This document shows, in pieces, positions 1,811-49,433 of a DNA stretch of 64,000 nt. Position numbers and translations under genes: made by a program. The stretch lies in assembly GCF_014280075.1 (NCBI RefSeq), contig NZ_CP047950.1, forward strand, positions 1,302,001-1,366,000. The letters are read 5' to 3'. The notes beneath the pieces were generated by a model. It saw nothing but the letters and a program-made list of their open reading frames with translations. It was not told the origin of the DNA and did no database searches. Origin of the DNA: Synechococcus sp. A15-62 (GTDB lineage: Bacteria; Cyanobacteriota; Cyanobacteriia; PCC-6307; Cyanobiaceae). The stretch's first letter is position 1. The number at the start of each line of letters is the position of its first letter.

Positions 1811-2536
1811 CAAGTGGGCTATTTGAGTAGCGGATTTCGCTGAAACGTCTGGTTCCAATGGCTTATCTGTTACTCGTCCTGGTCTCATGCACCTGGCCCG
1901 GGACGCGGACCCATGTCAGCGGCAACTGCTGGGTCCGTCTGTCTAGCGAATTCAGCCGTTCTTCCGAGGCCAATTGAGCATTTCGGTCGTCCGTATCAGT
2001 CGCGACCATTGCCTGCATCTACCGGAATTTTTGGCGGATCAGCACATCTTCAGAAATTCCCAGACAAGCCTGCTGAATGGGCTCATCATGAGACCCTCAG
2101 TTGCCCGCACACCAGATGTGGTGCTGAGCAGCACGGGGAGAGCGACCCTGGGGCTGGCAGACGAGTTTCCCCGTTGAGAGCGATCAACGGGGAAATTCTC
2201 TGTGTCTTAAAGCTGTAGAAATTCAGTGCATCAGGCACAAATCAGTGTGACGCGGCGAACGTGTTTATGCGGATACTGCATCGCTCGGGGAGGACTCGCT
2301 TCTCCTCGCGGTTCCGTGGCTCCACATCGTTAAGTCGCAGCTTGGTTGCAGGTCAGCCATCGCGGCAGAGGGAGCTGCTCAAAACTCGGATCAAATCGCT
2401 CACATCATTCGATTTCATGAGAACTTGATGAGCGGATCATGAAAGAAAAATAATTACCTATTTGCGATATTTAAAGCTTTGAAATTAAACAAACAAGCAA
2501 GTGCTTAAGTCGTTCCGTTATTTCAAGGAGGACAGT
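1811..2536 (+). other. intergenic stretch without recognisable genes
   Basis: About 725 bases. Frames present at 1913-2218 read as low-quality, arginine/serine-rich noise on both strands. The composition shifts from mixed to AT-rich near 2430, immediately before the next gene, where a promoter probably lies. I see no RNA gene, repeat or strong hairpin. Confidence 0.5.
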
Positions 2537-2770
2537 ATGCACAGTCAGAAGAACTCCCCGGCCTGCTTTTTGCGCTGGTCTGTGAGCAAAATTGCTGACA
2601 GGCTCTATGCGGTTGCGGCAACGGTTGACGGAAAGGACTACGACTTTGTCGGCAATTTCAAGAGCGTTCGAGAAGCGCAACAAGCAGGCCGCCGCTACGC
2701 CGAAGACCTGGTTCACAACTCGATGGCTGGTGGTCGCTTATCACTGAAGCAACAGCCTTTAACCGCTTGA
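2537..2770 (+). CDS. small hypothetical protein (77 aa)
   Basis: The start is fixed by a near-perfect Shine-Dalgarno (AAGGAGG, 2525-2531) six bases before ATG 2537; an in-frame codon upstream at 2501 is ignored. The protein is soluble with a mid-section of the type 'YAVAATVDGKDYDFVGNFKS' (about residues 24-43) followed by a basic helix. It resembles small one-domain proteins of unknown role in picocyanobacteria. No family is recognised. Confidence 0.65.
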   Translation: MHSQKNSPACFLRWSVSKIADRLYAVAATVDGKDYDFVGNFKSVREAQQAGRRYAEDLVHNSMAGGRLSLKQQPLTA

Positions 2771-2880
2771 TCGTCCCCATTAGAACGAGACTTAAGACAA
2801 GCATGGGTTCCCCTGGAGAGTGCACCTCCAGGGTTTTACAACCTGAATCCATGGAACACTTGGGCACCGCACGAGAGCCC

Positions 2881-3270
2881 ATGGCCAACTTCGACAACTC
2901 CACACCGTTCATGTTGCTGGCGCGAATCCACGTCAAGCCCGGTTGTGTCGACCAGTACCTGGAGCTCGCCCGTGTCACCGACGAAGCCGTTCAGGCTTCT
3001 GAGCCAGGCATGATTCATCACACCTTTGATCAGGACCCAAACGATCCCCAGGCGTTCGTTTGGTCAGAGGTCTACGCCAACGACGAGGCGTTCAGCGCCC
3101 ATGTGTCTAACCCTCCCGTTCAGGAGTATCTGCAAAAGCATGCGGAGCTTGGCGATGGTTTCAGCGTTGAGGTCTACGGCACGGTCGGCGATGACTGCCG
3201 GCAGCTGATGGAGTCGTTTGGGCTTCCACTCAAGATCTTCGAAACCAAGCTCGGATACAGCAGGGTCTGA
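2881..3270 (+). CDS. antibiotic biosynthesis monooxygenase (ABM)-fold protein
   Basis: 129 aa from ATG 2881; upstream in-frame starts at 2767 and 2851 would add a poorly composed leader. Residues 9-85 fit the ABM dimeric ferredoxin-like fold: a first strand 'MLLARIHVKPG', a helix with YLELARVTDEAV, a strand 'GMIHHTFDQDP', then 'AFVWSEVYANDEAFSAH' and a helix ending near the Pro-rich turn. ABM proteins include quinol monooxygenases and haem-degrading enzymes, but the substrate cannot be read here. The C-terminal 35 residues extend beyond the domain. It appears monocistronic. Confidence 0.75.
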   Translation: MANFDNSTPFMLLARIHVKPGCVDQYLELARVTDEAVQASEPGMIHHTFDQDPNDPQAFVWSEVYANDEAFSAHVSNPPVQEYLQKHAELGDGFSVEVYGTVGDDCRQLMESFGLPLKIFETKLGYSRV

Positions 3271-3312
3271 ACAACCTGGCGGGAAACATCCCTCGAGTTG
3301 TGGCAATCACGC

Positions 3313-3567
3313 CTACGGGGGGCTGTTCAGTTCCTCCTTGAGCTTGTCGAGACGGGTTTTGAGTTGCTCGGCGCGACGGGTCGTAGGTTTGTCGTCATGG
3401 CCCTTCAGCGCTGATTTGATCACTGCGATCTCCTTCTCAAGCTTCCGTCTCTTGGTGAAGGAAAGCGCTTCCTGAGCAAGACCGATCAGGAAATCACCCC
3501 GCGGGGCATAACAAGGAGCATCTTCAGCTGACTCGTTGTGTGCGGGCCCGTCCTCAGGATCAATCAT
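3313..3567 (-). CDS. small hypothetical protein with coiled coil (84 aa)
   Basis: An acidic N-terminus is followed by a Lys/Glu-rich helical region (about residues 35-82: KRRKLEKEIAVIKSALKG, then RRAEQLKTRLDKLKEEL) with heptad spacing that suggests a coiled coil. Its ATG lies inside the end of the gene at 3560-3847 (eight-base overlap), so the two are probably translated together. No family is recognised. No signal peptide. Confidence 0.7.
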   Translation of the reverse strand: MIDPEDGPAHNESAEDAPCYAPRGDFLIGLAQEALSFTKRRKLEKEIAVIKSALKGHDDKPTTRRAEQLKTRLDKLKEELNSPP

Positions 3568-3847
3568 GATCTAAGGCTTTCTCGGCAACATCGGCCGCCA
3601 CAAGAAACACATAGGAGAGTGCATTCATGTGACTGGCCATATCTTTGATCGATTCAATAATCTCCTTTCGCGATAAACCACTCTCCCGCTGAAGTCGAAT
3701 GATCTCGTGCGTTAGACGAGTCACATGGTCGCGACCGTAGTTGTAAGCCGTCCCAAAACAATCGTCACTCTCCTCATCAGTCCTGCAGGCTGCGGCAAAG
3801 TCTGAGGCAATTTTCTGGGAAAAATCTTCAACCTGACGGCAGGGCAT
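3560..3847 (-). CDS. small hypothetical helical protein (95 aa)
   Basis: ATG at 3847. An all-helical soluble protein with four cysteine/aspartate-rich turns near residues 21-30 (CRTDEESDDC) and a central helix containing RLTHEIIRLQRESGLSRKEI. It overlaps the next gene (3313-3567) by eight bases, indicating a two-gene operon. The helical repeats do not match a family I know; a regulatory or adaptor role is only a guess. Confidence 0.7.
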   Translation of the reverse strand: MPCRQVEDFSQKIASDFAAACRTDEESDDCFGTAYNYGRDHVTRLTHEIIRLQRESGLSRKEIIESIKDMASHMNALSYVFLVAADVAEKALDHD

Positions 3848-4271
3848 CGTTCTTTGGATTTGCCGAAATGTATGCGAGAAAAGAATGAAGCCCTAATAAC
3901 TTTTTGAACTAATAAGTTGAATTTCGCATTCTTGCTTATCGATCATCAAAGAAACTTCATGTTTTTTCTTGGAGAAACAAAAAATTGCTCAAAATCCTTT
4001 CCCAAGACCTCGATCGATGCATCGACTCATGCAAAAGTGTCTTGCCTTGGTTGGACTGTGGTCGCAAGCCAAGGCCACCAGAAGCTTCTCTCAAGCCTCT
4101 TTTTGACTGAGACGAGCTTCCTTTCCTCGAGGACAACAACTCATCCATCGATATTCCGTCGGACTCGTGAGCATCGTTTAGGCCTGACCAGCGTCCTGCT
4201 CGATGTGCCTCACCGTTCAATAAGCGAATTTGCCATCGTGAAGCCGGGGCATCGCCTCGGCAGCAGATACT
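3848..4271 (+). other. intergenic stretch, no supported gene
   Basis: About 420 bases. Long frames cross it on both strands (3917-4606 plus, 3957-4508 minus) but both have compositions typical of antisense or non-coding reading (many Ser, Arg, Trp and His), and the last third of the plus frame is out of register with the DUF1651 gene at 4272-4577. The first 100 bases are AT-rich and may carry the promoter of the minus-strand pair at 3313-3847. Confidence 0.45.
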
Positions 4272-11345: not shown

Positions 11346-11525
11346 TCAGCGATCCAGCAGGCCGGCATCGATCTTGGCGTCGGGATTGAGCTTGATCAGC
11401 ATCCAAAGCAACATGGCCGAGCAATCGCGATCACTCACGCCGTAGTCATATTTCCAGTCAGCCACCATTCCCTTGAGCTCATGCTGAGCCTGGGTGATGA
11501 ACTCATCGTTCCATTCCTGCACCAA
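11346..11525 (-). CDS. small hypothetical protein (59 aa), operon partner of 11531-11800
   Basis: Starts at TTG 11525 or GTG 11522, five to eight bases after the stop of the upstream gene at 11531, so translation is probably coupled. The protein is an acidic helical domain: EWNDEFITQAQHELKGMV, then DWKYDYGVSDRDCSAMLLW and a C-terminal GLLDR. No membrane segment. Unknown function. Confidence 0.6.
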   Translation of the reverse strand: MVQEWNDEFITQAQHELKGMVADWKYDYGVSDRDCSAMLLWMLIKLNPDAKIDAGLLDR

Positions 11526-11530
11526 TCGAT

Positions 11531-11800
11531 TCAGTCCTCTTCGAGATCCTCTTCCCTGACATAGAAGGGTTCATCAGAGCCTGGCTGATCGTTTTCCAGC
11601 ACGAGAACTTTGAGCGAATCATCACTCTCAAACACAAAGAGGCCATCTTCATCGGGATGCACCCCGTTCATTTCGGGATGCTGGTTGACGAGGCGCTTGA
11701 GGCGGCGCTTCTCCTTCCAGAACGTGGTTCCCTTTTCGACCAAATAAACCGTCAAAGCCAAGTTCACCAGCACAAGGGCGAGGAACTCCAAGGCCTGCAT
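11531..11800 (-). CDS. membrane-anchored hypothetical protein (89 aa)
   Basis: ATG 11800. Residues 3-21 form one membrane helix (ALEFLALVLVNLALTVYLV), followed by a basic stretch (KEKRRLKRLVNQ) and a soluble acidic tail containing 'GLFVFESDDSLKVLVLEND' and ending EEDLEED. The type is an N-in/C-out or reverse single-pass anchor with a small beta-like domain. It is the first gene of a two-gene unit with 11346-11525. Confidence 0.65.
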   Translation of the reverse strand: MQALEFLALVLVNLALTVYLVEKGTTFWKEKRRLKRLVNQHPEMNGVHPDEDGLFVFESDDSLKVLVLENDQPGSDEPFYVREEDLEED

Positions 11801-11917
11801 AGATCAAAACCGGGTTCAGACGACCCTAGCGAGAGAAGCGGGGAGCGCCATAACAAGCGATACCAAGCATTCAAAGGCAAGGAGAGGACAGGACAGAGCG
11901 TCGGCGACGGCTCATAA

Positions 11918-11932
11918 TGAGAATGATTCTCG
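11918..11932 (+). promoter_or_regulatory. Zur-type operator
   Basis: TGAGAATGATTCTCG: a 7-1-7 imperfect palindrome of the Fur/Zur class, 18 bases before the ATG of the CobW-like gene. It shares TGAGAAT plus a downstream TCTC/TATC half-site with the boxes at 16774-16788 (metallothionein) and 48650-48664 (znuA/znuC), which makes zinc-dependent repression by Zur the best reading. Confidence 0.75.
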
Positions 11933-11950
11933 GATTTCGAGGAGGATGCG

Positions 11951-12727
11951 ATGGGCCAGGTGTGCCTGATTTCAGGCCCCCCGGGGTGCGGGAAAACAAC
12001 CTGGGCGCTTCAAAGGCTCCAGCAGCATCAAGGCCCCTGCGCTTACCTGCGGCTGGAGGGAGAGAAGGCAGCGGGGCTTGAACAGGGGGAAGACAGCGGA
12101 ATCGACCTGACCTGGCTCAAGGACCAGGTGCCCAGGCTTGAGGAACCGGCAACAGCCAACGCGACGGACCTGAAACAGGACAACGATGTGCTGACCCTGA
12201 TCGAAGTGCAGCAGTTCCATCCCCCCAGCAAGGAGGGAATTGGAGGGCTCGGAGACGACGTTCGCTCCAAGCTTGAGGCCTTGCAGCTGCACCCCGACCA
12301 ACTCCTTCACTTCGGGCGAGACCCTGAATTGCCTGCGAAGGACACCTTGGAGTTCAGCAAGCTTGAGGCCTGGCACACCTCTCTTTCGGGTTGTGTTTGG
12401 GATCCCAACAGCCTGAGCAGCTTCTGGTTCGAGCTCGTGAACGGTGCCTACGGCGATGTGTACCGCGCCAAAGGCCTGATGAATCTTCCTGACGGTCGAG
12501 CATTTTTCTGCAACTGGATGGTGAGCCAGGAGTCATCCCAGTTCCTCCCCTTGGACACCACAGCACCACCGCAGGGGCGCCCCAGTCGAACCTCGGAGCT
12601 CGTTGTTCAGGGCAAGGCACTCAACCCTGAAGGCATGCAAACCACCATCAACGACTGTCTGCTCGCGGATGACGTGCTCGCCATGCAGCAACAACAGCTC
12701 CAACAACAACCCACATCGCAAGGCTGA
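11951..12727 (+). CDS. CobW-like P-loop protein, Zur-cluster member
   Basis: 258 aa from ATG 11951, with GAGGAGG just upstream. The Walker A motif is residues 9-17 (GPPGCGKTT). The C-terminal half matches the CobW C-terminal domain, with YGDVYRAKGLMNLPDGRAFF at about 173-192. The Cys motif CxCC of COG0523 metallochaperones is absent, and the GTPase core is short. The tail is glutamine-rich. A Zur-type box lies directly upstream and two phosphoesterase genes follow closely (5 bases, then overlap), so this is the first gene of a probable zinc-regulated operon. A metal-insertion role is inferred. Confidence 0.8.
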   Translation: MGQVCLISGPPGCGKTTWALQRLQQHQGPCAYLRLEGEKAAGLEQGEDSGIDLTWLKDQVPRLEEPATANATDLKQDNDVLTLIEVQQFHPPSKEGIGGLGDDVRSKLEALQLHPDQLLHFGRDPELPAKDTLEFSKLEAWHTSLSGCVWDPNSLSSFWFELVNGAYGDVYRAKGLMNLPDGRAFFCNWMVSQESSQFLPLDTTAPPQGRPSRTSELVVQGKALNPEGMQTTINDCLLADDVLAMQQQQLQQQPTSQG

Positions 12728-12732
12728 TTGAC

Positions 12733-13548
12733 ATGAACCACGCCGTCATCTCCTGTTTGCACGCCAACCTTGCCGCCGTAGAGGCGGTGCTCGATGACAT
12801 CGACTCCCAGGGCATCCAAACCATCACCTGTCTTGGAGACCTTGTGGGCTATGGACCACAGCCCAATGAAGTGGTGGAACTGATGCGTCAGCGCAAGATT
12901 CCCACCTGCCAGGGGTGCTGGGACGAAGACATCATTGACGGTCTGAATGCCTGTGAATGCAGCTATCCCTCCCAGCTGGCGGAACGACGAGGCCATCGCG
13001 CCCATCACTGGACGGCCGAGCTGCTGACGGAGGAGAACAAGGCCTTTCTGGCTGAACTACCAATGACCCTGCGACGCGACAAGCTGTTGTTTGTGCATGG
13101 CAGTCCGAACAGTCAGCACGAATATCTGTTGCCTGACATGAACGCTTTTGCGGCCCTTGAACGGGTGGAAACAGCAGGGGCGGAAACCTTGTTCTGCGGC
13201 CATACCCACCAGCCCTATGTGCGCGAATTACGCCAGGGGTCCATTCGGGTGAAGGTGCAACAACACGATCAAGGCGCACCAACAGAACAGGAGATGGAAC
13301 TGCCGATGCGGCGGATCGTTAACGCTGGATCCGTTGGGGAACCGCGTCATGGCAGCACCAAGGCCACCTACGTCATTCATGACGACAACACCGGAGAAGT
13401 GACGATACGAGAGGTCGACTACGACATCACCAAAACCTGTCGAGCGATCGTTGATGCGGGCTTACCGGAAGTGTTTGCCTGGAGACTCAGCCATGGCTTC
13501 GAATACGCCGAGCGAGCTGAAGACGCCAGCCACGTGTGTGAGCGCTGA
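12733..13548 (+). CDS. metallophosphoesterase-fold protein with Cys in metal sites
   Basis: 271 aa of the YfcE/MJ0936-like calcineurin fold. Motif I reads SCLH (Cys8-x-His10) where the family has D-x-H; motif II is GD (35-36); motif III reads GCWD (61-64) where the family has GN-H-D/E; His122 (VHGSPN) and GHTH (156-159) are intact. Two usual metal ligands are therefore cysteines, with more Cys at 59, 74 and 76. The gene lies second in the Zur-boxed cluster and its stop overlaps the next start by one base. Phosphoesterase activity, or a switch to zinc binding, is unproven. Confidence 0.82.
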   Translation: MNHAVISCLHANLAAVEAVLDDIDSQGIQTITCLGDLVGYGPQPNEVVELMRQRKIPTCQGCWDEDIIDGLNACECSYPSQLAERRGHRAHHWTAELLTEENKAFLAELPMTLRRDKLLFVHGSPNSQHEYLLPDMNAFAALERVETAGAETLFCGHTHQPYVRELRQGSIRVKVQQHDQGAPTEQEMELPMRRIVNAGSVGEPRHGSTKATYVIHDDNTGEVTIREVDYDITKTCRAIVDAGLPEVFAWRLSHGFEYAERAEDASHVCER

Positions 13549-14258
13549 TGGAACGCTGGGCCCTGGTGAGTGGTCTCCAAGGAGACCTGGATCTGTACGA
13601 ACAGATTCAGAAGGAGTTGAAGCAACAACGGGGTGTTGCCAATCTCTTCGTTCTCGGTGATCTGATCGGATCACAACGCAAGTGCAATGCACTGCTCGAG
13701 AGGCTGAGGCAGCCGAAGCGCGCTGATCTTCAGCCCGACTGCATCTACGGCTGGTGGGAAGAGCAGCTTCTGGCGGAGTGCGGTTACCGCGGCGAACGCA
13801 AGGCTGAAAGCCTCAGAGCAGAACAAGGCGAGGCGGCGGTTGGAGAACTTCTCGCTGCAGTAGACGCCGACCATCTCAACTGGCTTGCATCGCTGCAGTT
13901 CGGCTTCATCGAACTCGACTGCGCTTTGATTCATGGAAGCTCCGCTGACGTCGGCGACCGGCTAGCGGAAGACACCTCAGCCCTGGTGCTGCTGGATCGG
14001 CTGACGCGGCTGGATGTGAACCGACTGTTTACGGCTCGCTGTCAGCGTCAATTCCGACTGGAGCTTTCCGGTGGATCCATCCAATCCCACATTAAAGACC
14101 ATGCCGGTGAACAGCAGAGCGAACAGGCTGTGCCCAAGCGAAGCGTGATCGGCATTGGAGGGGGGAGGCACTACACCCTCTACGACCCCGCAACGGATCA
14201 CATCGAATTTCGAATTGCGGGAGAACCTTCCAACGCTTCGGGGCGGGGCTTTGGCTGA
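13548..14258 (+). CDS. degenerate metallophosphoesterase paralogue
   Basis: 236 aa starting at ATG 13548, overlapping the preceding stop by one base (TGATG). It aligns along its length with the gene before it: VSGLQGDL replaces ISCLHANL, LGDLIG keeps motif II, YGWWEE replaces QGCWDE, ALIHGSS keeps one His, and TARCQRQ stands where CGHTHQP should be. Most metal ligands are missing, so catalysis is unlikely. I infer a non-catalytic partner or regulatory subunit of the upstream protein. Confidence 0.75.
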   Translation: MERWALVSGLQGDLDLYEQIQKELKQQRGVANLFVLGDLIGSQRKCNALLERLRQPKRADLQPDCIYGWWEEQLLAECGYRGERKAESLRAEQGEAAVGELLAAVDADHLNWLASLQFGFIELDCALIHGSSADVGDRLAEDTSALVLLDRLTRLDVNRLFTARCQRQFRLELSGGSIQSHIKDHAGEQQSEQAVPKRSVIGIGGGRHYTLYDPATDHIEFRIAGEPSNASGRGFG

Positions 14259-14374
14259 CTGCCACGTCTCGAGATGTTGTGTCGCAGCAACTGCTGAGTG
14301 AGTTGCTCGCCTGATCACAAGACCGTCGTTTCACAACCTTTGATCCCAAAGATCACCTCTGTTTTTCAGACCCA

Positions 14375-15487
14375 ATGACCACCGCACCAGCCACCGCCAA
14401 CGTCCCCGTCACCATTCTCAGCGGCTTCCTCGGTGCGGGAAAAACCACGCTGCTGAATCACATCCTGAGCAATCAGCAGGGGGTGAAGACAGCGGTGCTG
14501 GTGAACGAGTTCGGTGAAATCGGCATCGACAACGATCTAATCGTCACCACCGATGAAGACATGGTGGAGCTGAGCAACGGTTGCATCTGCTGCTCGATTA
14601 ACGGCGAGCTGATGGAGGCGGTGGAACGGGTGATTGAACGCCCAGAGCCGCTGGATTACATCGTCGTCGAAACCACCGGTCTGGCCGATCCCCTGCCGGT
14701 GGCCATGACCTTCCTGGGCAGTGAGCTGCGGGACCAAACCCGCCTGGATTCGATCATCACGTTGATCGATGCAGAAAACTTCGACGACGTCGTGCTCGAC
14801 ACGGAAGTTGGCCGGGCCCAGGTGATTTACGGCGACATTCTGTTGCTGAACAAGTGCGACCTCGTCTCCGAGGAGCGGCTTGAGGCCGTCGAACAGCAAC
14901 TCAGAGAAGTCAAGAACGATGCGCGGATCCTGCGGTCGGTGAAAGGAGACGTGCCCCTTGCCCTATTGCTGAGCGTCGGACTGTTCGAATCCGACAAGGT
15001 GAGTTCAGCCGACGACGGTCGCAGCCATGGGCACGATCACAGCCATGACCACGATCACGGTCATGACCACGATCACAGCCATGGACACGATCACGGTCAT
15101 GACCACAGCCATGGGCACGATCACACCCATGACCACAGCCATGGGGAGGGTCATGACCACGGACACCATCACCACAGCCACAACCACGGTGACCATCAGG
15201 ACATCGAGGGATTTACCTCCATGTCCTTCCAAAGTGATGGCCCCTTCTCTCTGCGCAAGTTCCAGAACTTCCTCGACAACCAGATGCCCCAGGAGGTGTT
15301 CCGGGCCAAAGGAGTCTTGTGGTTCAACGAAAGCGAACGCCGCCATGTGTTCCATTTGGCAGGCAAACGCTTTTCCATTGACGACACCAACTGGACCGGT
15401 GATCGCAAGAATCAATTGGTGCTGATCGGCCGCGACATCGACCACACCACCCTGCGGAAGCAACTCAAGGCCTGTGTGGCTGATTGA
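14375..15487 (+). CDS. CobW/COG0523 GTPase with His-rich metal loop
   Basis: 370 aa. GTPase core: Walker A 17-25 (GFLGAGKTT), metal motif CICC at 70-73, NKCD at 159-162 for guanine recognition. Between the core and the C-terminal CobW domain lies a His/Asp/Gly-rich loop at about 217-275, almost pure HGHDHSHDH repeats, a likely zinc-buffering segment. The C-terminal domain contains 'RAKGVLWFNESE'. COG0523 proteins deliver or manage zinc, cobalt or nickel; the adjacent Zur cluster points to zinc. No Zur-type box is visible in its own 116-base upstream gap. Confidence 0.88.
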   Translation: MTTAPATANVPVTILSGFLGAGKTTLLNHILSNQQGVKTAVLVNEFGEIGIDNDLIVTTDEDMVELSNGCICCSINGELMEAVERVIERPEPLDYIVVETTGLADPLPVAMTFLGSELRDQTRLDSIITLIDAENFDDVVLDTEVGRAQVIYGDILLLNKCDLVSEERLEAVEQQLREVKNDARILRSVKGDVPLALLLSVGLFESDKVSSADDGRSHGHDHSHDHDHGHDHDHSHGHDHGHDHSHGHDHTHDHSHGEGHDHGHHHHSHNHGDHQDIEGFTSMSFQSDGPFSLRKFQNFLDNQMPQEVFRAKGVLWFNESERRHVFHLAGKRFSIDDTNWTGDRKNQLVLIGRDIDHTTLRKQLKACVAD

Positions 15488-15745
15488 GTCAAAGGAACCC
15501 GCAACCCCTCCCAAACTCGCGTTGTGGTGGTTCCGTCTTGGCGCTGGTTCTCGTAGGTCCCGTGACAACGGAATCGCCTTTGCTCAGCACCCAGAGCGGT
15601 CATTTTTCAGTAATGAGATCGAGCTCGCGATGCGCGCTGATCAAAACCTCCGCGTTCTTCTGCTGTAACGCCAGATCAGCAACGTTGCTCAAGGCCAATC
15701 AACGCGCAAGGCTGTCCATACGTTGAAAACACTCACAAGCGACGC

Positions 15746-16003
15746 ATGGACGACCACAACCAACAAAAGCTCACGGCTCGCGAGATGGTGCGAGCCCACG
15801 CCTACCCCGTACTGGCTGCCGTCAGCAGCCTCAGCCTGCTCAGCATCGCGATTCTGCTGATCCCGCAAGCGGTCAAAACCCATCGCTACAACCGCTGCAT
15901 TGATGCACAGATCACCATGCGGGCCAGCATCAATCCCAAGGGAGGCACAGATCCCGGCAAAATGAATTACCTCAAAGCCGTTGAACACTGCGAAGGCTTC
16001 TGA
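15746..16003 (+). CDS. single-pass membrane protein (85 aa)
   Basis: ATG 15746. Cytoplasmic N-terminus with TAREMVRAHAYP, one membrane helix at about 25-46 (AAVSSLSLLSIAILLIP), and an outer segment with two cysteines (RCIDAQ, EHCEGF). The 260 bases upstream (15488-15745) hold no gene. It is the first of three tightly packed genes (gap of four bases to the next). Unknown function. Confidence 0.6.
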   Translation: MDDHNQQKLTAREMVRAHAYPVLAAVSSLSLLSIAILLIPQAVKTHRYNRCIDAQITMRASINPKGGTDPGKMNYLKAVEHCEGF

Positions 16004-16007
16004 ACCG

Positions 16008-16229
16008 ATGCGCGCCATCCAACCGTTAACGGCACTCAACTTCTGCGTTTTGGCCCTGGTGCTGAACCAAGCACCAGGGATGGCCCACGGCAAGGGGATC
16101 TACGACACCGAAGCCGAAGCCCAGCAACGGGCCGCTGAGATCGGTTGCACCACCGTTCACGAGAACAACGGCCGCTGGATGCCTTGCGCTGATGAACGGC
16201 AGCTTCACCGACAGCTTCGCAAGCAATGA
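16008..16229 (+). CDS. DUF3721-like small secreted protein (73 aa)
   Basis: ATG 16008, five bases after the previous stop. A signal-like hydrophobic start (LNFCVLALVLNQAPGMA) is followed by 'YDTEAEAQQRAAEIGC' and 'NGRWMPC', the pattern of DUF3721 proteins found in marine picocyanobacteria. Two conserved cysteines could form a disulfide. Its stop overlaps the next gene (ATGA). Function unknown. Confidence 0.65.
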   Translation: MRAIQPLTALNFCVLALVLNQAPGMAHGKGIYDTEAEAQQRAAEIGCTTVHENNGRWMPCADERQLHRQLRKQ

Positions 16230-16510
16230 GGCCCTCCGGCACAACCAGCCGACAGGCGCGGCGCATTCATCGCTGGCTGGTGCCTATCGCCGCTGCGCCG
16301 CTGTTGATCACCGCTGGAACCGGCTCCCTTTACAGCTTGCTGCTGGAGCAGAACATTGATGCCTTTTGGCTGCTCAAACTGCACACAGGACAGTTCGGCT
16401 GGCTCAACCTTCAGCCCGTGTACCCAATCCTGCTGGGGGGTCTCACCATTGTTGTGACCGTGTCTGGGCTGACGATGCTGCTCAGGCCAGCCCGCACAAA
16501 AGGGAGTTGA
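16226..16510 (+). CDS. PepSY-associated-type membrane protein (94 aa)
   Basis: ATG 16226 overlaps the preceding stop. It has an Arg-rich start (RRIHRWLVP), a first helix with PIAAAPLLITAGTGSLYSLL, a short loop with 'LKLHTGQFGWLN' and a second helix (YPILLGGLTIVVTVSG), the layout of PepSY-associated transmembrane proteins. Last gene of the three-gene unit; it converges on the metallothionein gene, three bases away. Confidence 0.65.
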   Translation: MRPSGTTSRQARRIHRWLVPIAAAPLLITAGTGSLYSLLLEQNIDAFWLLKLHTGQFGWLNLQPVYPILLGGLTIVVTVSGLTMLLRPARTKGS

Positions 16511-16512
16511 GA

Positions 16513-16683
16513 TCAATCAGCGCAAGTGCAGCCGCAGGAGCCACTGCCATGGCAGGGCTCGTGGTTGGGATGGCCGGTGGCACAGGCCTCTGAACAGAAA
16601 CTCTGGCCATCGCGAACAACAACCTGGGACGCCTGAACCTCACAGGTGCAACGCGAACAGGCACAGGGAGTAGCAGGAGCCAT
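16513..16683 (-). CDS. bmtA: bacterial metallothionein (SmtA/BmtA family)
   Basis: A 56-aa cysteine-rich protein encoded from ATG 16683 to TGA 16513. It has ten Cys (7, 9, 12, 14, 30, 34, 44, 50, 52, 54) and two His near the C-terminal Cys group. The order CACSRCTC, then FCSEACATGH, then CGCTC matches the SmtA zinc-binding architecture. Members store zinc as a four-metal cluster in the cytoplasm. A Zur-type box lies 91 bases upstream at 16774-16788, and CobW and ZnuABC genes occur in the same window. It is convergent with the gene at 16226-16510. Confidence 0.93.
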   Translation of the reverse strand: MAPATPCACSRCTCEVQASQVVVRDGQSFCSEACATGHPNHEPCHGSGSCGCTCAD

Positions 16684-16773
16684 CACAACAAATCAACCAA
16701 CTGCTGTATAGGCCTAAAAAAGATGACCACAGAAGAAACACACCATTTCCACACACAATTCATGTGGAAAAAT

Positions 16774-16788
16774 TGATAGTGATTCTCA
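16774..16788 (-). promoter_or_regulatory. Zur-type operator of the metallothionein gene
   Basis: On the minus strand TGAGAATCACTATCA, matching the znu box TGAGAATGATTATCA at 13 of 15 positions. It lies 91 bases before the metallothionein start. In Synechococcus sp. WH 8102 Zur is known to act on a metallothionein gene as well as on zinc uptake; the direction of control here cannot be read from sequence. Confidence 0.7.
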
Positions 16789-22038: not shown

Positions 22039-22182
22039 ACCAAATAACTCAACAATCGACTGAAAAATTCAAGATTTCAGATGCTTTTGATAATGACTCT
22101 CATTTAACTTGGTGCAAATAACACACCTTGCGAGCAATTTGACTTGCATGTGCGTATCATTTGGACATCAACAAGTAAAAAA

Positions 22183-26709: not shown

Positions 26710-27000
26710 TCAAGAAAGGTGATATGACAGCTGTGCTGCTGACAGGCAACGAGACAGCAATTCTTCTAACAAACATTTCTGCATAGATTGAGAATCAAGA
26801 GATTGACTAATCACAGTCAGAGAGTCTTTTATAGCCAAACATCTGACACGGTAAAAAGATATTTCCGCAACAAGCCGATTTTTAAGCTTGGGATGCTGAC
26901 AATGCTGTATTGAACGACTCGCACATTTAAGTCGCCGCCGCATCCATTCAGCCTCTCTGCAGAGATCGCCAAGAACACCAAAGGAATTCACGATCTTCAA
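26710..27000 (-). CDS. hypothetical helical protein coupled to Crp gene (96 aa)
   Basis: ATG 27000 overlaps the stop of the Crp regulator by four bases, so the two are co-translated. The protein is helical with paired basic and cysteine residues (RRRLKCASRSIQHCQHPKLK) and a C-terminal leucine/serine-rich helix (KCLLEELLSRCLSAAQ). Five cysteines in 96 residues. No family. A partner or modulator of the regulator is a reasonable inference. Confidence 0.6.
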   Translation of the reverse strand: MKIVNSFGVLGDLCREAEWMRRRLKCASRSIQHCQHPKLKNRLVAEISFYRVRCLAIKDSLTVISQSLDSQSMQKCLLEELLSRCLSAAQLSYHLS

Positions 27001-27599
27001 AATTGGAGTGGTGAAGAATTGATGAGGTCAGGTGCAATGCGCATGGTGACATCACCAGTCGACATGGCGATCATGTCAGCTTGACGCCATTTCGATAGAA
27101 GGCGGGTTGTGGTCACCCGGGTAGCACCGATCAACTCACCAAAACGATCATGGGTTAGACGGAAGGGAAGCTGATAAGCATCGCTGCAACGAAGTCCAAG
27201 CCGGTTAACCAGGAGCGCTAGAAGAGCGTGAAGCCGCTGTTCCGCTTGACCCAGATGACGGACTCTTAGGAGCTGCAAGGTCCACTCATTGACTGCGTCG
27301 ATTCCGAATTCGTCCGCGGAGACGGAGTCACGACGAAACTTCAGGGCCGTAAGTGCCTCGACACAAGCGCCGTCACTGCACATGCGATCGGTGCGAAGCC
27401 TGTCGCCTGACTGCAAAAACGCCAAAGTCATTCCCTCGGTTTCCTCACAAGGGCAATACACCCGGCAAACACCTTCCAACACCTCAAGAACGGTGGCCTG
27501 ATCGCGACCGGCAGGATCCAGCAGAACGGTCTGAAGCCTTGGCATCGACAAAGGTGCCGCAGGATCATCCGGTAAGAACCGGTAGGAAGAGGTCGTCAC
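26997..27599 (-). CDS. Crp/FNR-family regulator with Cys-rich sensor domain
   Basis: 200 aa, GC-richer than its neighbours. C-terminal helix-turn-helix at about 147-176 (LTHDRFGELIGATRVTTTRL). The sensor half carries five cysteines: 45, 49 and 51 (CRVYCPC) and 74 and 79 (CSDGAC). No cAMP-binding residues are evident. Cys clusters in this superfamily hold Fe-S (FNR) or other metal or thiol sensors, so iron or redox sensing is a plausible inference. Three Fur-like boxes precede the gene (27612-27697). Confidence 0.85.
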   Translation of the reverse strand: MTTSSYRFLPDDPAAPLSMPRLQTVLLDPAGRDQATVLEVLEGVCRVYCPCEETEGMTLAFLQSGDRLRTDRMCSDGACVEALTALKFRRDSVSADEFGIDAVNEWTLQLLRVRHLGQAEQRLHALLALLVNRLGLRCSDAYQLPFRLTHDRFGELIGATRVTTTRLLSKWRQADMIAMSTGDVTMRIAPDLINSSPLQF

Positions 27600-27611: not shown

Positions 27612-27697
27612 TTGAGAATTACTCGCAAGAGTACAGACTCCTTGTCGATATTGCAAGTCATTCTCAATAAGGCACTCAAATTGAGATTCTTTCTCAA
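27612..27697 (-). promoter_or_regulatory. three tandem Fur-like operators
   Basis: Three 17-base sites on the plus strand: TTGAGAATTACTCGCAA (27612-27628), TTGCAAGTCATTCTCAA (27651-27667) and TTGAGATTCTTTCTCAA (27681-27697). The last is a perfect TTGAGA-N5-TCTCAA palindrome. They differ from the Zur-type boxes (TGAGAATGATTATCA) in half-site sequence, which favours Fur. All lie upstream of the Crp gene at 26997-27599. Confidence 0.65.
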
Positions 27698-43609: not shown

Positions 43610-44566
43610 TTGGACAAGCTCGCCACGGCCTGGGCGATCTTTCAGGGGTTACTGCTGGAAGCCGTTCCGTTTCTGCTGCTCGGCGTTGCCATCGCAGGGC
43701 TGGCCCGATGGGCCGTGCCACCGGGTGCCTGGATCGAGCGGCTGCCCAAGAACCCTCTGCTGGCTCCGATCATCGGGGCCCTGATGGGTTTTGCCCTACC
43801 AGCCTGCGAATGCGGCAACGTCCCCGTCGCCCGCCGTCTGCTGGCCAGCGGTGCACCGATGGGCACGGCCTTCGGCTTTCTGTTTGCAGCCCCGGTGCTG
43901 AATCCCATCGTGCTGGCCAGCACCTGGGCCGCGTTTCCTGATCAGCCCTGGCTGCTGGTGGCCCGGCCATTGGGGGCTTTTCTGCTAGCGATCCTGCTGA
44001 GTTTGTTGCTGGTGCAACTGCCTGAGACGCAGCTCCTTGCAACGGCTCTGCTGGAGGAACGCCGCATGAGCCAGCCCCTCAGCAACCTGGGGCTGCTGCA
44101 GCGCAGCAGTGGTGTGATCGGCGGATCACCCAGCCCCCCCCGATCCATGGGCGGCAGGCGCCTCAAGGGCTGGCAGGTGCTGGACCAGAGCTGCCGAGAA
44201 TTTCTCGATCTGCTGGCTCTGCTGGTGCTGGGGTGCGTGATTGCGGCCCTGGTGCAGACCTGGCTGCCGCGCAGTTGGCTGTTGGCCGTGGGGGGCGCGC
44301 CGACAGCATCGATCCTGGCCTTGATGCTGCTGGCCGTGGTGGTGTCGGTCTGCTCCAGCGTGGATGCCTTTCTTGCCCTGGGGTTTGCCGCTCAGATCAC
44401 CCCAGGAGCCCTGCTGGCCTTCCTTTTGCTGGGGCCCGTTGTAGATCTCAAACTCGCGGGCCTGTTCACCGTGCTGATGCGGCCAAGGGCGATCCTGATC
44501 ACGGCGATCGGTGCCAGTCTTGGCGTGCTGCTGATCGGTCAGTGGATCAACCTGTGGCTGCTGTGA
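43610..44566 (+). CDS. ArsP/DUF318-family permease
   Basis: 318 aa with a TTG start at 43610. About eight membrane segments; the motif PACECGNVPVARRLLASG (about 64-81) and the matching 'SVCSSVDAFLALGFA' late in the protein are the hallmark of DUF318 permeases. A long loop in the middle carries SPSPPRSMGGRRL. These permeases are proposed to export metals, metalloids or small organics. The following TIGR03943 gene is its usual partner. Divergent from the oxoprolinase gene. Confidence 0.85.
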   Translation: MDKLATAWAIFQGLLLEAVPFLLLGVAIAGLARWAVPPGAWIERLPKNPLLAPIIGALMGFALPACECGNVPVARRLLASGAPMGTAFGFLFAAPVLNPIVLASTWAAFPDQPWLLVARPLGAFLLAILLSLLLVQLPETQLLATALLEERRMSQPLSNLGLLQRSSGVIGGSPSPPRSMGGRRLKGWQVLDQSCREFLDLLALLVLGCVIAALVQTWLPRSWLLAVGGAPTASILALMLLAVVVSVCSSVDAFLALGFAAQITPGALLAFLLLGPVVDLKLAGLFTVLMRPRAILITAIGASLGVLLIGQWINLWLL

Positions 44567-44579
44567 GGGGCCGTTCGAG

Positions 44580-45233
44580 TTGAAGCGCGCAACCCTGCTG
44601 CTGCTCTGGGGCCTGACGCTGTTGTGGAGCTTCCACAGCGGACGCCTCGATCTGCTGCTTCGCGGGGTCTTCCATGGCCTGGTGGGGGTCACCGGCCTTG
44701 TCTTGCTGATGCTGGGCGTGGCCGTTCTTCTGAAACGAGAGAAGCAAAACGATCGCTGGCGCTGGCCCTGGCTGCTCAGTGGCGTGATGGCTCCGCTGGT
44801 GCTGATCCTTCCGCCCAGCCCCTCCTTCAGCGATCTGGCCAGCAACCGCCCCCAGGGCCTGCCCGATCCACCGGAGTTGGCCTTTGTTCTGCCCCCCGAG
44901 CAACGCAGCCTCACGGAATGGGTGCGCTGGCTGCGCAGCCAGCCCGACCCTGATCTTGTGGCTGGCAATCCCGTACGCATCAGCGGTTTTGTCTGGAGGC
45001 AACCCCAGGGCCCGCCGCTGATCGCCAGGCTCACGGTGCGCTGTTGCCTGGCCGACGCCACGCCCGCTGGTCTGGCGGTGGAGTGGCCGGAGTCGTTCAG
45101 CCCCCAAACCAACCAGTGGTTGGCCATCGAGGGAACGATGAGCGTGCAAACCCGCAACGAACGACGCATCCCCGTCGTGATTCCTGAAAACATCACGCCA
45201 ATTGCCAGGCCCGAACGGCCCCTGGAACCATGA
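44580..45233 (+). CDS. TIGR03943-family membrane/periplasmic protein
   Basis: 217 aa, TTG start at 44580, 14 bases after the permease. Two N-terminal membrane helices, 'TLLLLWGLTLLWSFHSG' and 'GVTGLVLLMLGVAVLL', then a third near 65-80, then a periplasmic domain with 'GNPVRISGFVWRQP' and 'RLTVRCCLADATPAGLAVEW'. The CCxAD motif is typical of this family, which is nearly always paired with a DUF318 permease. Its stop overlaps the next gene's start. Confidence 0.82.
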   Translation: MKRATLLLLWGLTLLWSFHSGRLDLLLRGVFHGLVGVTGLVLLMLGVAVLLKREKQNDRWRWPWLLSGVMAPLVLILPPSPSFSDLASNRPQGLPDPPELAFVLPPEQRSLTEWVRWLRSQPDPDLVAGNPVRISGFVWRQPQGPPLIARLTVRCCLADATPAGLAVEWPESFSPQTNQWLAIEGTMSVQTRNERRIPVVIPENITPIARPERPLEP

Positions 45234-46615: not shown

Positions 46616-47671
46616 CTAGAAGGTGAACGTCACGCCAGTGCCGACATGGTGCTGCCAACCTTCACCCCAGCCAGGCGCATCTTCCCAGCTGTAGGTCTGC
46701 TGCCAGTGCAGGAACAACGTGGCATCACCGATGGGAACCGAAAGTTCGATTTCACCGGCCAAATCTGTGCGCGGATCCAATCCTGCGTAGCTGCCGGGAA
46801 CATAGAAACGAGGGCCCGCTTCAATCATCAAGGAGATCTCATCACCACCAAATGTGAAGCCCAGGCCCACACGAGGATCGGTGTAGTTGCCCACATACAT
46901 CCCGTCGGATTCCCAACCCTGACGGTGATCAACTGACAGATAAACACCATTCACAAGATCCTCGATACCATCGCCAAGGGCGAAATTCACATCTCCATCA
47001 CCCAAAGCCCAGATCGCCTTGGCGCCAAGCTCATTCTTCAAGCCCTGAATGTCCTCACCCTGGTCTTTGGTGACGTAATAGGGGTTCCAGGACAGCTCAA
47101 AACTTAAGCGATCATTGGGTGCATAACGGGCCTGAAGAAAGCCCTTGATATCGGTGCGCTTGAAGTCGGTGTCGTGGCTGTGGTCATGACCGTGATCATG
47201 TCCTTCATGATCATCATGATCGTCTTCATGTTCATCATGATCTTCGTCGTGATCATCATGATCGTCTTCGTGATCATGATCGCCATGATCTTCTTCATGA
47301 TCATGATCGTCATGTTCTTCTTCATGATCATCGTCGTGATCATCAACGTGAACCTTGCCGTAAAAGTGTTCTGCTTCTCCCCAAACCAAAGCAGGCCCAA
47401 TGGCAGCTTCGATCGCAAAAGAACCGCCATTTGCGAGGCCCCACTCAAAGACGCCACCAAACATGCCATCGATGGCGTAGTGCTTGGGATCACCCTCAAG
47501 GTTGGTGTCAAATCCACCATGGCCTTCGATGGTGATGATGGGCGTGAAATCGAATTCACCGGCCTCGAGAGACTCTCCACCACCACCATGGGAGCCATGG
47601 GCCTCGGCAGGCGAAATGGAGGCGAACGGGCTCAACAGAAGAGCCAGCAGGGCAAGGCGTGAACGGAACAT
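46616..47671 (-). CDS. outer-membrane barrel with His/Asp-rich metal segment
   Basis: 351 aa. Signal peptide 1-24 (AEA-HG), so the mature protein starts HGSHGGGG. Residues 108-168 are nearly pure His, Asp and Glu (DDHDHEEDHGDHDHEDD and similar), a strong zinc/cation binder. The rest has outer-membrane barrel features with alternating aromatic strands and a C-terminal Phe (TFTF). It lies 50 bases downstream of znuA on the same strand, so it is probably co-transcribed and Zur-controlled, and may capture zinc at the cell surface. The DNA of the segment is low complexity, mainly GAT/CAT codons. Confidence 0.85.
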   Translation of the reverse strand: MFRSRLALLALLLSPFASISPAEAHGSHGGGGESLEAGEFDFTPIITIEGHGGFDTNLEGDPKHYAIDGMFGGVFEWGLANGGSFAIEAAIGPALVWGEAEHFYGKVHVDDHDDDHEEEHDDHDHEEDHGDHDHEDDHDDHDEDHDEHEDDHDDHEGHDHGHDHSHDTDFKRTDIKGFLQARYAPNDRLSFELSWNPYYVTKDQGEDIQGLKNELGAKAIWALGDGDVNFALGDGIEDLVNGVYLSVDHRQGWESDGMYVGNYTDPRVGLGFTFGGDEISLMIEAGPRFYVPGSYAGLDPRTDLAGEIELSVPIGDATLFLHWQQTYSWEDAPGWGEGWQHHVGTGVTFTF

Positions 47672-47720: not shown

Positions 47721-48638
47721 TCACCGGATCGATGACCACTGCGTGTTCAAGGCATTAGCGCCAGCGGTGTCACAGGACCCGCCCTGGCCCTTGACGATCG
47801 TGCAGACGTTGAGGGTCGCCGTCGAAACAGCATTTCGACCAGCAGCAACGCCCTCCCCATACAGCGGTGTGGACGCGATCGGCAATCCCGTGGCCTTGCT
47901 GATGCGCCTCAGGGTTTTGTTGGGAGTAGCCGCAGGGGAAAAGATGGTTTTGGCACCGGATGCTTTCACCTCCTGAGTGATTGATTTGAGGCTGGAAGGC
48001 CGCAAAACTCCTCCGGTGGTGTGGCTGTCCAACATCGCAATCTCAACAAGTCCAAAGCGATTGGCGAGATGGCTGTAGGTCCTGTGATCGGTCACCAGAA
48101 CCCGCTGGGCCGGGGGCAAAGAACTGAACTGCTTGGCTTCCCAGCTCTGCAAAGCCTGTAAAACAGCAACGGCACGAGCCGTGCGTTGCTGCAAGGCAGC
48201 ACGATCACTGGCTGGCAGAACGGGGGCCAGAGAACTTGAGATCACCCGCACCATTGCTGCGGAATTGGCCGGGTCGTGCCAGACATGGGGGTCGCTGCCG
48301 CCATAGGACGGAAGAGCGACTTCACCGACGGCCACCAGCGTTCCTGGTGACTTGAGCTTTTTGGCCGACGGGGTCAGCCCAAAACCGATGTGCAAAACCA
48401 GATCACTCTTGGCGATCTGGCTGCGATCACTGGGCTTCAAGCGATAGGAATGGGGATCACCACCAGGAGGGATCAGGCACGTGACCGAGGCAGCACCGGC
48501 AGCCAGGGTCTTGGTGAGATCACAGAGCGTGCCGTCGACGGCCACCACCACAGGTTGAGCCGCATGGGCCGGAACTAGGGCAGCTCCAATGGCCAAAGCC
48601 AGGCTGACCCCAGCCGATCGAGCCAAAACAGGACGCAT
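47721..48638 (-). CDS. znuA: zinc ABC transporter substrate-binding protein ZnuA
   Basis: 305 aa from ATG 48638; longer frames would start inside the Zur-type box. Signal peptide 1-26 (AHA-AQ). Zinc ligands fit the cluster A-I pattern: His63 (GGDPHSYRL), His118 and His121 (DPHVWHDPAN) and His in 'VTDHRTYSHLANR' near 200. The His-rich loop common in other ZnuA proteins is absent; the neighbouring barrel carries it instead. It binds zinc in the periplasm for ZnuBC. A Zur-type box (48650-48664) lies just upstream, shared with znuC. Confidence 0.9.
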   Translation of the reverse strand: MRPVLARSAGVSLALAIGAALVPAHAAQPVVVAVDGTLCDLTKTLAAGAASVTCLIPPGGDPHSYRLKPSDRSQIAKSDLVLHIGFGLTPSAKKLKSPGTLVAVGEVALPSYGGSDPHVWHDPANSAAMVRVISSSLAPVLPASDRAALQQRTARAVAVLQALQSWEAKQFSSLPPAQRVLVTDHRTYSHLANRFGLVEIAMLDSHTTGGVLRPSSLKSITQEVKASGAKTIFSPAATPNKTLRRISKATGLPIASTPLYGEGVAAGRNAVSTATLNVCTIVKGQGGSCDTAGANALNTQWSSIR

Positions 48639-48649
48639 GGACGCCTTGG

Positions 48650-48664
48650 TGAGAATGATTATCA
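48650..48664 (+). promoter_or_regulatory. Zur-type operator between znuA and znuCB
   Basis: TGAGAATGATTATCA, the best of the three Zur-type boxes in the window (others at 11918-11932 and 16774-16788). It sits 12 bases before the znuA start and 80 before znuC, so one site can repress both transcripts when zinc is sufficient. Confidence 0.8.
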
Positions 48665-48743
48665 TTTTGCTGAGCACTTGATCCCTCGCCAACATGGGGT
48701 GTGCAAAACATCAAGAGGCCCAAGTCCGGCCACCGAAGAGTTG

Positions 48744-49433
48744 ATGAGCCAATCGTCGTGCGTGCTGAGCACAACAGAGCTGTGCTTCAGCTACGGAGGT
48801 CGCAACACCGTCGACCGCGTCAACCTGCAACTGCAAGCGGGAACACTGACGGCGCTGGTGGGGCCCAACGGAGCCGGCAAGTCAACGCTGTTGCACCTGC
48901 TGGAAGGCCGACTGAAACCCAGCCAAGGAACGGTCAACACCAGCAAGCCCATCGGCCTGATGCCCCAGCGGGCCGCCATTGATTGGTCGTTTCCGATCAC
49001 TGCCCGTGACATGGTCCAGCTGGGGCAGCCCAAAAAGGGCAAAGCCACAACAGCGGACCACTGCGAACAGCTGCTGGAACGCGTCGGCATGGGAACCATG
49101 GGGAACCGGCGCCTCAACCAGCTCTCCGGCGGCCAGCAACAACGCGTCCTGCTGGCCAGAGGGTTGATGCAGCAGACCGAGATCCTGCTGCTGGACGAAC
49201 CCTGCAGCGCCATCGATCCACCAACGCGCGAGCACCTGCTCAAGGTGATGCGGGATCAGGCGGAAGCCGGTCAGACACTGCTGGTGAGCAGCCACGACTG
49301 GGGTAGCGCCCTCGACAGCTACGACCAGGTGGTCGTGATGGACGGCCAGATCCTGGCCAACGGGTCACCCGACACGGTCCGAGAAAAACTGAGCGACCTG
49401 ACTTGCATGATGGGGAGCCACTGCTGTGGTTGA
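48744..49433 (+). CDS. znuC: zinc ABC transporter ATP-binding protein ZnuC
   Basis: 229 aa from ATG 48744. Walker A GPNGAGKST (40-48), signature LSGGQ (127-131), Walker B 'ILLLDEP' (147-153) and the His of the H-loop in 'VSSHDWG' near 187. It energises zinc import with ZnuB. The znuB start overlaps its end. Expression is probably set by the Zur-type box upstream. Confidence 0.9.
   Translation: MSQSSCVLSTTELCFSYGGRNTVDRVNLQLQAGTLTALVGPNGAGKSTLLHLLEGRLKPSQGTVNTSKPIGLMPQRAAIDWSFPITARDMVQLGQPKKGKATTADHCEQLLERVGMGTMGNRRLNQLSGGQQQRVLLARGLMQQTEILLLDEPCSAIDPPTREHLLKVMRDQAEAGQTLLVSSHDWGSALDSYDQVVVMDGQILANGSPDTVREKLSDLTCMMGSHCCG

Follow-up and report, generated by a model that had tools for sequence, protein, structure and literature searches.

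What is a metallophosphoesterase (MPE) with cysteines in its metal-binding motifs doing behind a Zur-type box in Synechococcus sp. A15-62? The question is raised by a window of 64,000 nucleotides (positions 1302001-1366000 of a genome of 2.29 Mb in a single contig, with Synechococcus and Prochlorococcus making up most of its relatives), in which an earlier note made from the letters alone, here called the original prediction, had seen a Zur-type box, a CobW-like gene and two overlapping MPE-fold genes. All four can be read directly in the sequence, and we call the genes P1, MPE1 and MPE2. The ATG of P1 at 11951 follows the box TGAGAATGATTCTCG by 18 bases, and the open reading frames (ORFs) of MPE1 and MPE2 overlap by one base (13548). 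The three genes form an operon that is conserved across Cyanobacteriia and very likely linked to zinc. Our best reading of it, to which we give an even chance, is a Zur-repressed zinc-handling module, in which zinc is held and passed on with P1, MPE2 and a protein of the COG0523 family.

MPE1 has the profile and the fold of a calcineurin-like MPE. It matches PF12850 with an E-value of 3.9e-24 (85.8 bits, cut-off 27), its best match both by sequence and by fold is 3rqz (fold E 3e-16), and its AlphaFold model, with a mean predicted local distance difference test score (pLDDT) of 70.1, supports the fold. Two of its catalytic motifs are altered: motif I reads S-C8-L-H10 and motif III G61-C62-W63-D64 in the window protein. 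We aligned 120 MPE1 rows, namely 80 distinct picocyanobacterial sequences and 40 from distant loci (one part of the 66 genomes outside the picocyanobacteria that have MPE1), and in every one of them C-x-H stands in place of D-x-H and C62-W63-D64 in place of the catalytic G-N-H-D/E; the Cys-altered motifs of the original prediction are thus fixed. Motifs II (GD), IV (H) and V (GHxH) are kept throughout, with Asp36, His122, His157 and His159. The same holds for His10, Cys74, Cys76, His91, His129, Cys155, His206, Cys236, His267 and Cys269 next to Cys8, Cys62 and Trp63, while Cys59 is found in 22 of the 40 distant rows.

These residues were compared with an outgroup of 21 rows, eight of which are sequences with a CxC loop from arsenic operons. 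Position 8 is Asp in all 20 outgroup rows aligned there and position 62 is Asn in all 21; none has Cys8, Cys62, Cys236, Cys269, His91, His129, His206 or His267, of which His267 and Cys269 lie past most outgroup sequence ends. Cys155 is common in other outgroups as well, and Cys33 (118/120) is likewise shared. Within this limited set, the CLH/GCWD pair is therefore not the widespread feature of ordinary MPE enzymes that would have spoken against a special role (Cys in 0/20 rows at position 8 and 0/21 at position 62). The loss of the motif-III His, which had been taken as a sign of zinc handling, does not serve as such alone, and we discarded it as a stand-alone argument for a non-enzyme, since the outgroup rows mostly lack this His too (Tyr in 8, Thr in 10, His in 3). 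If the standard MPE ligand scheme is assumed, metal 1 would be held by Cys8, His10, Asp36 and His159 and metal 2 by Asp36, Cys62, His122 and His157. Metal binding by MPE1 is likely.

MPE1 could still be a nucleotide or protein phosphoesterase, whose Cys-retuned two-metal site keeps its metal or uses another in zinc starvation, with P1 and MPE2 in regulatory roles. The invariance of the bridging Asp36, of the motif IV and V His and of His10 agrees with this, as does the presence of a diadenosine tetraphosphate (Ap4A) hydrolase (3qfm) among the nearest solved folds; moreover, a Cys ligand also occurs in zinc hydrolases of a different fold, the B1 metallo-beta-lactamases. However, the motif-III His of MPEs normally serves catalysis, and its position is Trp in all MPE1 rows. 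Together with the eight further Cys/His that are fixed in MPE1 and absent from the outgroups, and with partners that comprise a COG0523-type protein and zinc-linked neighbours, this makes the hydrolase unlikely in our view, though a serious rival. Because motifs I and III depart from the catalytic form, we do not file MPE1 as a catalytic MPE.

A second alternative is suggested by relatives of MPE1. A plasmid protein search gave 98 records, of which we examined three cyanobacterial ones and nine others. Eight of these nine come from Bacteroidota, Rubrobacter and Paraclostridium, where they belong to arsenic operons and have arsB, arsM, arsC or arsR next to them; the ninth, from Azospirillum, reads GNHD, has no CxC and bears no annotation. 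The eight arsenic-operon rows read SDxH, GNYD and C-G-C at the position of C74-x-C76 of MPE1, and in four of them, including that of Paraclostridium, the first Cys of CGC is residue 74 by the protein's own numbering. Among the relatives examined they are the nearest to MPE1, with the CxC loop in common. Arsenic-resistance operons with such a CxC MPE (GNYD ... CGC) are hence found in three phyla (eight loci), where the annotation of the protein says no more than 'metallophosphoesterase family' or 'YfcE family'. A tandem second MPE copy, with GNHD and without CxC, is present in Pedobacter and Mucilaginibacter.

Cys74 and Cys76 are called essential for the arsenate reductase Car1 in the excerpts that we used of a 2025 paper (PMC12124457). 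MPE1 might accordingly be a thiol-redox enzyme of the Car1 kind: arsenate or some other oxyanion would be bound at the metal site and reduced by the dithiol of Cys74 and Cys76 together with thioredoxin. Zinc control would then reflect oxyanion or thiol stress in zinc-starved cells. Car1 itself reportedly places arsenate at a two-metal site, where it is attacked by Cys74, followed by a disulfide with Cys76 and the participation of thioredoxin. The Cys74-x-Cys76 loop is present in 120/120 MPE1 rows and in 8/8 arsenic-operon CxC rows, a correspondence with Car1 that is drawn from quoted residue numbers and not from an alignment with Car1, and the arsenic-operon rows also lack the motif-III His (GNYD). 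Yet the Asp of motif I and the Asn of motif III, present in all eight of these rows, are replaced in all 120 of MPE1. Furthermore, no ars family was recognised, judging from the representatives read, among the gene clusters shared by 4 or more of the 40 neighbourhoods in cyanobacteria; the ArsP_1-family permease of the window lies far off at 43610; and boxes and neighbours point to zinc. A Car1-kind enzyme thus seems unlikely to us, though it is a serious rival too, and because of Asp8/Asn62 and the missing ars context we do not file MPE1 as Car1 either.

For the ancestry of MPE1, a first tree that included MPE2 was discarded, as MPE1 came out as a single group in no more than 8% of 200 bootstrap trees. 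In the tree without MPE2, the 17 MPE1 rows form one group (100/100), and the arsenic-operon rows lie on the same side of a 100/100 branch. A single group of MPE1 and the eight CxC rows to the exclusion of the other nine was rejected by the approximately unbiased (AU) test (p-AU 0.008). Nested within the CxC rows are two tandem copies from arsenic operons that have GNHD and no CxC, and long branches are flagged, which makes any history of the CxC loop tentative. Altogether, MPE1 probably derives from a Car1-like MPE branch and not from an ordinary phosphoesterase. The proposed move away from phosphoesterase chemistry towards zinc is hence supported as to the fixed Cys ligands, but its presumed starting point, an ordinary phosphoesterase, should probably give way to the Car1-type ancestor to which the CxC loop points.

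MPE2 is a paralog of MPE1 (hhalign 98.3%) that has lost motif I (GLQG), the motif-III Asn/His (GWWE) and the GHTH pair (ARCQ), as expected for a protein described as having most ligands gone; Asp38 and His129 are kept. The third protein, P1, carries a CobW_C domain (28.5 bits against the Pfam cut-off of 22; 27 of 33 members at E<=0.001) and the Walker A motif GxxGxGK[TS] in 88/88 picocyanobacterial and 33/39 distant sequences, with Gly14-Lys15-Thr16 in 39/39 of the latter. Its AlphaFold model (mean pLDDT 83.6) is best matched by YjiA, including Zn-bound forms, in Foldseek (probability 1.00, TM-scores, i.e. template modelling scores, near 0.3), and a PDB sequence search gave P-loop proteins only, at weak E-values. 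The CxCC metal motif, found in 20 of 21 homologs of the canonical COG0523 gene at 14375, is absent from all 127 P1 sequences (0/88 picocyanobacterial, 0/39 distant), which rules out P1 as an ordinary COG0523 protein. As for the NKxD guanine-specificity motif, [NT]KxD occurs in 1/88 and 2/39 sequences, in the latter two near the C-terminus. The label 'CobW-like' is therefore apt for the Walker A motif, the CobW_C domain and the YjiA match, but not for CxCC and NKxD.

The three genes travel together. MPE1 has a match in 56 of 151 family genomes, full-length in 54, and is found in 92 of 386 phylum genomes at E<1e-60, with the next matches near 1e-30; its frame is broken in three of the 92 (G340, G444, G497). 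P1 is found in 99 of the 386 genomes at E<=1e-3. Both genes occur in 91, MPE1 without P1 in one and P1 without MPE1 in eight. The former is G497, whose MPE1 frame has stops; among the latter, G123 has a stop in P1, G407 a frame of 195 residues and G155 a partial gene, and G343, G207, G217, G306 and G396 give weak matches at E about 1e-4. The co-occurrence of MPE1 with the CobW-like gene, for which the original prediction had suggested a check, is thus near-perfect. P1 lies directly upstream of MPE1 in 39 of the 40 distant loci (the exception is L144), and MPE2 follows downstream in 39, within 300 bases in 35 and 0.7-2.8 kb off in the others; MPE2 is in pieces in L145, and the sequence of L149 ends about 1 kb past MPE1. 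The operon occurs in ocean Synechococcus and Prochlorococcus, and among 111 picocyanobacterial loci P1 is present in 111 and MPE2 in 109. In three loci (L014, L015, L017) and genome G061, 5.2-7.4 kb of other DNA lie between MPE1 and MPE2; both genes can therefore persist when the pair is separated. Viral contigs, scanned by pattern for further copies, gave four stretches, none of which was confirmed.

The neighbourhood suggests a link to zinc. Recurrent neighbours in the 40 distant loci are folE (18), COG0523 (17), hemB (12), a flavin adenine dinucleotide (FAD) oxidoreductase (12), thrS (9), znuB (6), znuC (6), znuA (5) and hisI (4), where the names rest on a reading of one sequence per cluster, aided by annotated plasmid copies. 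On plasmid A of T. variabilis the row comprises znuA, hemB, thrS, DUF1636, COG0523, a methyltransferase, hisI, a hypothetical gene, P1, MPE1 and MPE2. In freshwater relatives P1 is immediately preceded by a COG0523 gene. The COG0523 coding region ends at most 10 bases from the start of P1 in Cyanobium and in a number of Synechococcus loci, and there is one box. In the window, the COG0523 gene lies behind MPE2 instead, with no plus-strand terminator-like site in the gap between them and no good box of its own upstream (best match 10/14).

The promoter points the same way. The site AGGACA-17-CATAAT is the only promoter-like site within 11500-16300, although alone it is weak evidence because an average of 1.2 such sites is expected from shuffles. 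The genome of 2,294,140 bases contains the exact 14-mer TGAGAATGATTCTC a single time. We scanned the regions upstream of the operon, or of the COG0523 gene where COG0523 leads, with a matrix trained on 24 znuC boxes (12 different), only those scoring at least 13/14; this training is not fully independent, because the znuC boxes were picked with a consensus drawn up after seeing the P1 boxes. Of 105 distinct picocyanobacterial regions, many of which are near kin, 103 have such a site at p<=0.05 and 76 at p<=0.01, with p-values from 100 dinucleotide-preserving shuffles per region; identical copies and regions with less than 150 bases upstream were left out. The two misses are L041 and L059, and COG0523-led regions have the site at p<=0.01 in 11/11. 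Judged by eye, the P1 and znuC boxes of one genome look alike and drift together, with TGAGAATGATT-type boxes in Synechococcus, TGAAAAC/TGATAA-type boxes in Prochlorococcus and TGAGAATGATTCCCA for both in G071; in this comparison no znuC box above 12/14 was found in G034, G075, G101, G115 and G141, and G024 had no scannable region. Among the distant loci, scanned from 4.5 kb upstream of P1 to the end of MPE1, 36 of 40 have a match of at least 13/14 against 0.064 expected per locus from mononucleotide shuffles, and in 17 the box falls in the stretch from 300 bases before the P1 ORF to 60 bases within it.

A Zur-type box at the operon promoter is what membership in a Zur regulon calls for, but sequence alone does not exclude Fur. 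The 7-1-7 motif is common to Fur-family sites, and the window has a 13/14 match at 22088-22102, 41 bases before a ferritin-like gene (22144), itself downstream of a futA-like gene. If the operon box were a Fur or PerR site, the operon would belong to iron or peroxide responses and the zinc link would be coincidental. We regard this as very improbable and lowered the iron reading, given the drift of the box in common with znuC and the zinc neighbourhood with its zinc-paralog, znu and COG0523 genes; further, the metallothionein gene of the window carries a box, and the P1 remnant of Synechococcus PCC 7002 is induced in a zur deletion.

This last point comes from published expression data, which we remapped. 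According to excerpts of Ludwig et al. 2015 (PMC4628125), hemB-II, folE-II, G0131 and G0132 of PCC 7002 are up in a zur deletion and under N,N,N',N'-tetrakis(2-pyridylmethyl)ethylenediamine (TPEN), whereas G0129 (a 'phosphoesterase') and G0130 are not up in the deletion. When compared by BLAST with the operon of PCC 7117, which is intact, G0131 corresponds to the first 147 residues of P1 (99% identical, in keeping with the gene order on pAQ7) and G0129 to the final part of MPE2 (96%). For G0130 there is no match among P1, MPE1 and MPE2, and MPE1 is gone from PCC 7002. The broken operon occupies pAQ7 2217-3988, with an unrelated ORF between the P1 and MPE2 remnants and a 14/14 box between G0131 and G0132. 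The assignment of these genes to the remnants is ours and not that of the published study. The P1 promoter in PCC 7002 hence appears to be controlled by Zur and zinc. We attribute the silence of G0129 and G0130 to the broken operon; with MPE1 missing and only the end of MPE2 left, PCC 7002 does not in our view argue against the MPEs being under the control of zinc. Together with the znuC-derived matrix and with the metallothionein and znuABC genes of the window, which have like boxes, these data support the zinc control that had been predicted.

We thus propose the following mechanism. Zn-Zur at 11918-11932 would cover the promoter, and upon a drop in zinc, P1, MPE1 and MPE2 would be co-transcribed, probably with the COG0523 gene behind them. 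MPE1 keeps the two-metal frame His10/Asp36/His122/His157/His159 and would add a thiolate at each metal (Cys8, Cys62); the Cys74-x-Cys76 loop may lie near the metal site, by the precedent of Car1, and there are other invariant Cys/His, among them the C-terminal His267-x-Cys269. In this form MPE1 would hold zinc tightly and hand it on, with no hydrolysis of phosphoesters; MPE2 would serve as a structural partner without activity, P1, devoid of the metal motif CxCC of its family, as a nucleoside triphosphate (NTP) switch, and the canonical COG0523 protein as a soluble zinc carrier. For MPE1 we infer zinc transfer rather than hydrolysis or redox chemistry. A more far-reaching version, which we put forward tentatively, is a cyanobacteria-wide zinc-transfer machine made of an NTPase without a metal motif of its own and an MPE-fold heterodimer, whose thiolate zinc site lies beside a redox-capable CxC loop and whose zinc release might be gated by nucleotide and thiol redox state.

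Several points weigh against zinc handling as the role of the module. Zinc binding, formation of a complex and the direction of transfer are all things that we infer. Catalysis is compatible with thiolate ligands, the CxC loop shared with arsenic-operon MPEs can be read as redox machinery, and a Cys-rich zinc binder made in zinc starvation would compete for zinc unless the zinc were handed on. The model of MPE1 does not establish the geometry of the site, because pLDDT is lowest at the Cys/His loops 64-82, 125-137 and 257-271, where several of the proposed extra ligands lie. The excess of Cys/His is modest: they make up 9 of the 41 invariant MPE1 positions absent from the arsenic-operon rows versus 16 of the full 107 that are invariant. 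Glu (6), Arg (5) and Ala (5) are frequent among the 41 as well, and the reverse comparison yields eight positions, including Asp8 and Asn62. Row counts for MPE1 are not counts of independent events, because the rows are related and many are near relatives. Furthermore, the operon is dispensable, as the 54 of 151 family genomes with full-length MPE1 and at least three same-genus genomes without it indicate; the box motif, which also precedes the ferritin-like gene, cannot tell Zur from Fur sites; and, as far as the excerpted data go, the cluster genes G0129 and G0130 of PCC 7002 are not induced.

The zinc-related genes of the window extend beyond the operon (Table 1). The three genes of the original prediction stand as listed, but two others were omitted there: the canonical COG0523 gene and a metallothionein gene with its box.

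Table 1. Features of the operon and of zinc-related genes in the window
Feature	Positions	Strand	Remarks
Promoter-like site AGGACA-17-CATAAT	11890-11918	+	abuts the Zur-type box
Zur-type box TGAGAATGATTCTCG	11918-11932		perfect 6-1-6 palindromic core
P1, divergent COG0523-like P-loop protein with CobW_C, without CxCC	11951-12727	+	258 residues
MPE1, metallophosphoesterase fold; C8-x-H10, GC62WD, C74-x-C76, C-terminal H267-x-C269	12733-13548	+	271 residues
MPE2, degenerate MPE1 paralog, most metal ligands gone	13548-14258	+	236 residues
Canonical COG0523 GTPase (CxCC, NKxD, long His-rich loop)	14375-15487	+	116 bases past MPE2
bmtA-like metallothionein gene (context)	16513-16686	-	57 residues, 10 Cys
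Zur-type box, 13/14	16774-16788		87 bases upstream of the metallothionein gene
znuA-like substrate-binding protein ORF	47721-48695	-	named by sequence reading; true start probably further inside
Zur-type box TGAGAATGATTATCA, 14/14	48650-48664		between znuA and znuC
znuC-like ATPase ORF	48678-49433	+	true start probably downstream
znuB-like permease	49426-50220	+	named by sequence reading

The metallothionein gene, about 1 kb past the COG0523 gene, matches solved metallothioneins (E 5.8e-8). G464, G004, G061 and L010 likewise have such a gene at no more than about 2 kb from MPE2 or MPE1; it is far from the operon in G435 and G442 and unmatched in G089, and none was found in the other loci searched, many of which have short flanks. 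The znuA/znuC/znuB-like cluster resembles one described, in the excerpts used, in PMC9337993, where Zur of Synechococcus WH8102 is reported to repress znuABC and to activate bmtA, with a Zur box that overlaps the -10 elements at znu. A His/Asp-rich protein (46616-47671) adjoins znuA and may, from its position, be the uncharacterised Zur-repressed gene next to znuA of WH8102. Elsewhere in the window, an ArsP_1-family permease lies with a DUF1980_C protein at 43610-45233, far from the operon, and a CRP-type regulator gene (26997-27599, minus strand) is preceded by three separate 12/14 matches to the Fur-family box, which start at 27613, 27652 and 27682 and together occupy 27613-27696.

If the proposed zinc-handling module is real, MPE1 would clearly exemplify a phosphoesterase whose active site has been rebuilt with cysteines, and would do so on the MPE branch to which an arsenate reductase also belongs. 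The role of Zur-controlled COG0523 proteins in zinc homeostasis is called unclear in the excerpts of a review (PMC6103462), and the fixed partner set of P1, MPE1, MPE2 and COG0523, which is small enough for purification, bears on it. It may also be relevant here that, according to the excerpts of PMC9337993, open-ocean gyre strains live at ultra-low zinc.

How does the operon compare with known systems? The Zur regulons of Anabaena PCC 7120, Synechococcus PCC 7002 and WH8102 have like boxes and, as far as the excerpts of PMC6103462 and PMC4628125 report for cyanobacteria, comprise znuABC, hemB2, folE2, thrS2 and COG0523 genes (alr1197, all1751 and all4722 in Anabaena; PMC6103462), to which metallothionein is added. 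They differ as regards the MPE pair: no description of it in a zinc context was found among the open-access matches listed, and the word 'phosphoesterase' is not in the main texts of PMC9337993 (WH8102), PMC10957091, PMC2770081 and PMC12058595, while in the excerpts of the PCC 7002 paper (PMC4628125) it occurs once, for the gene that maps to the MPE2 remnant. With the Zur-regulated COG0523 zinc GTPases of the YciC/ZagA/ZigA group, of which the gene at 14375 is a canonical member, P1 shares CobW_C, Walker A and YjiA as best model match; it differs by the absence of CxCC (0/127), by its length of about 260 residues and by a profile comparison that aligns the C-terminal domain only, and weakly (probability 17%).

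MPE1 shares its fold with Vps29 and other non-catalytic MPE scaffolds (Foldseek matches), which use it for protein contacts; Vps29 is not known to have a Cys-rebuilt metal site. With Car1 of Rufibacter tibetensis, known to us from descriptions only, and with the arsenic-operon MPEs it has in common the family and fold, the lack of a motif-III His and the CxC loop. The arsenic-operon CxC rows differ, however, in that they keep Asp8 and Asn62, lack the eight MPE1-invariant Cys/His and stand beside arsB, arsM, arsC or arsR, with no P1-like gene annotated there. MPE1 is thus a variant on the MPE/Car1 branch.

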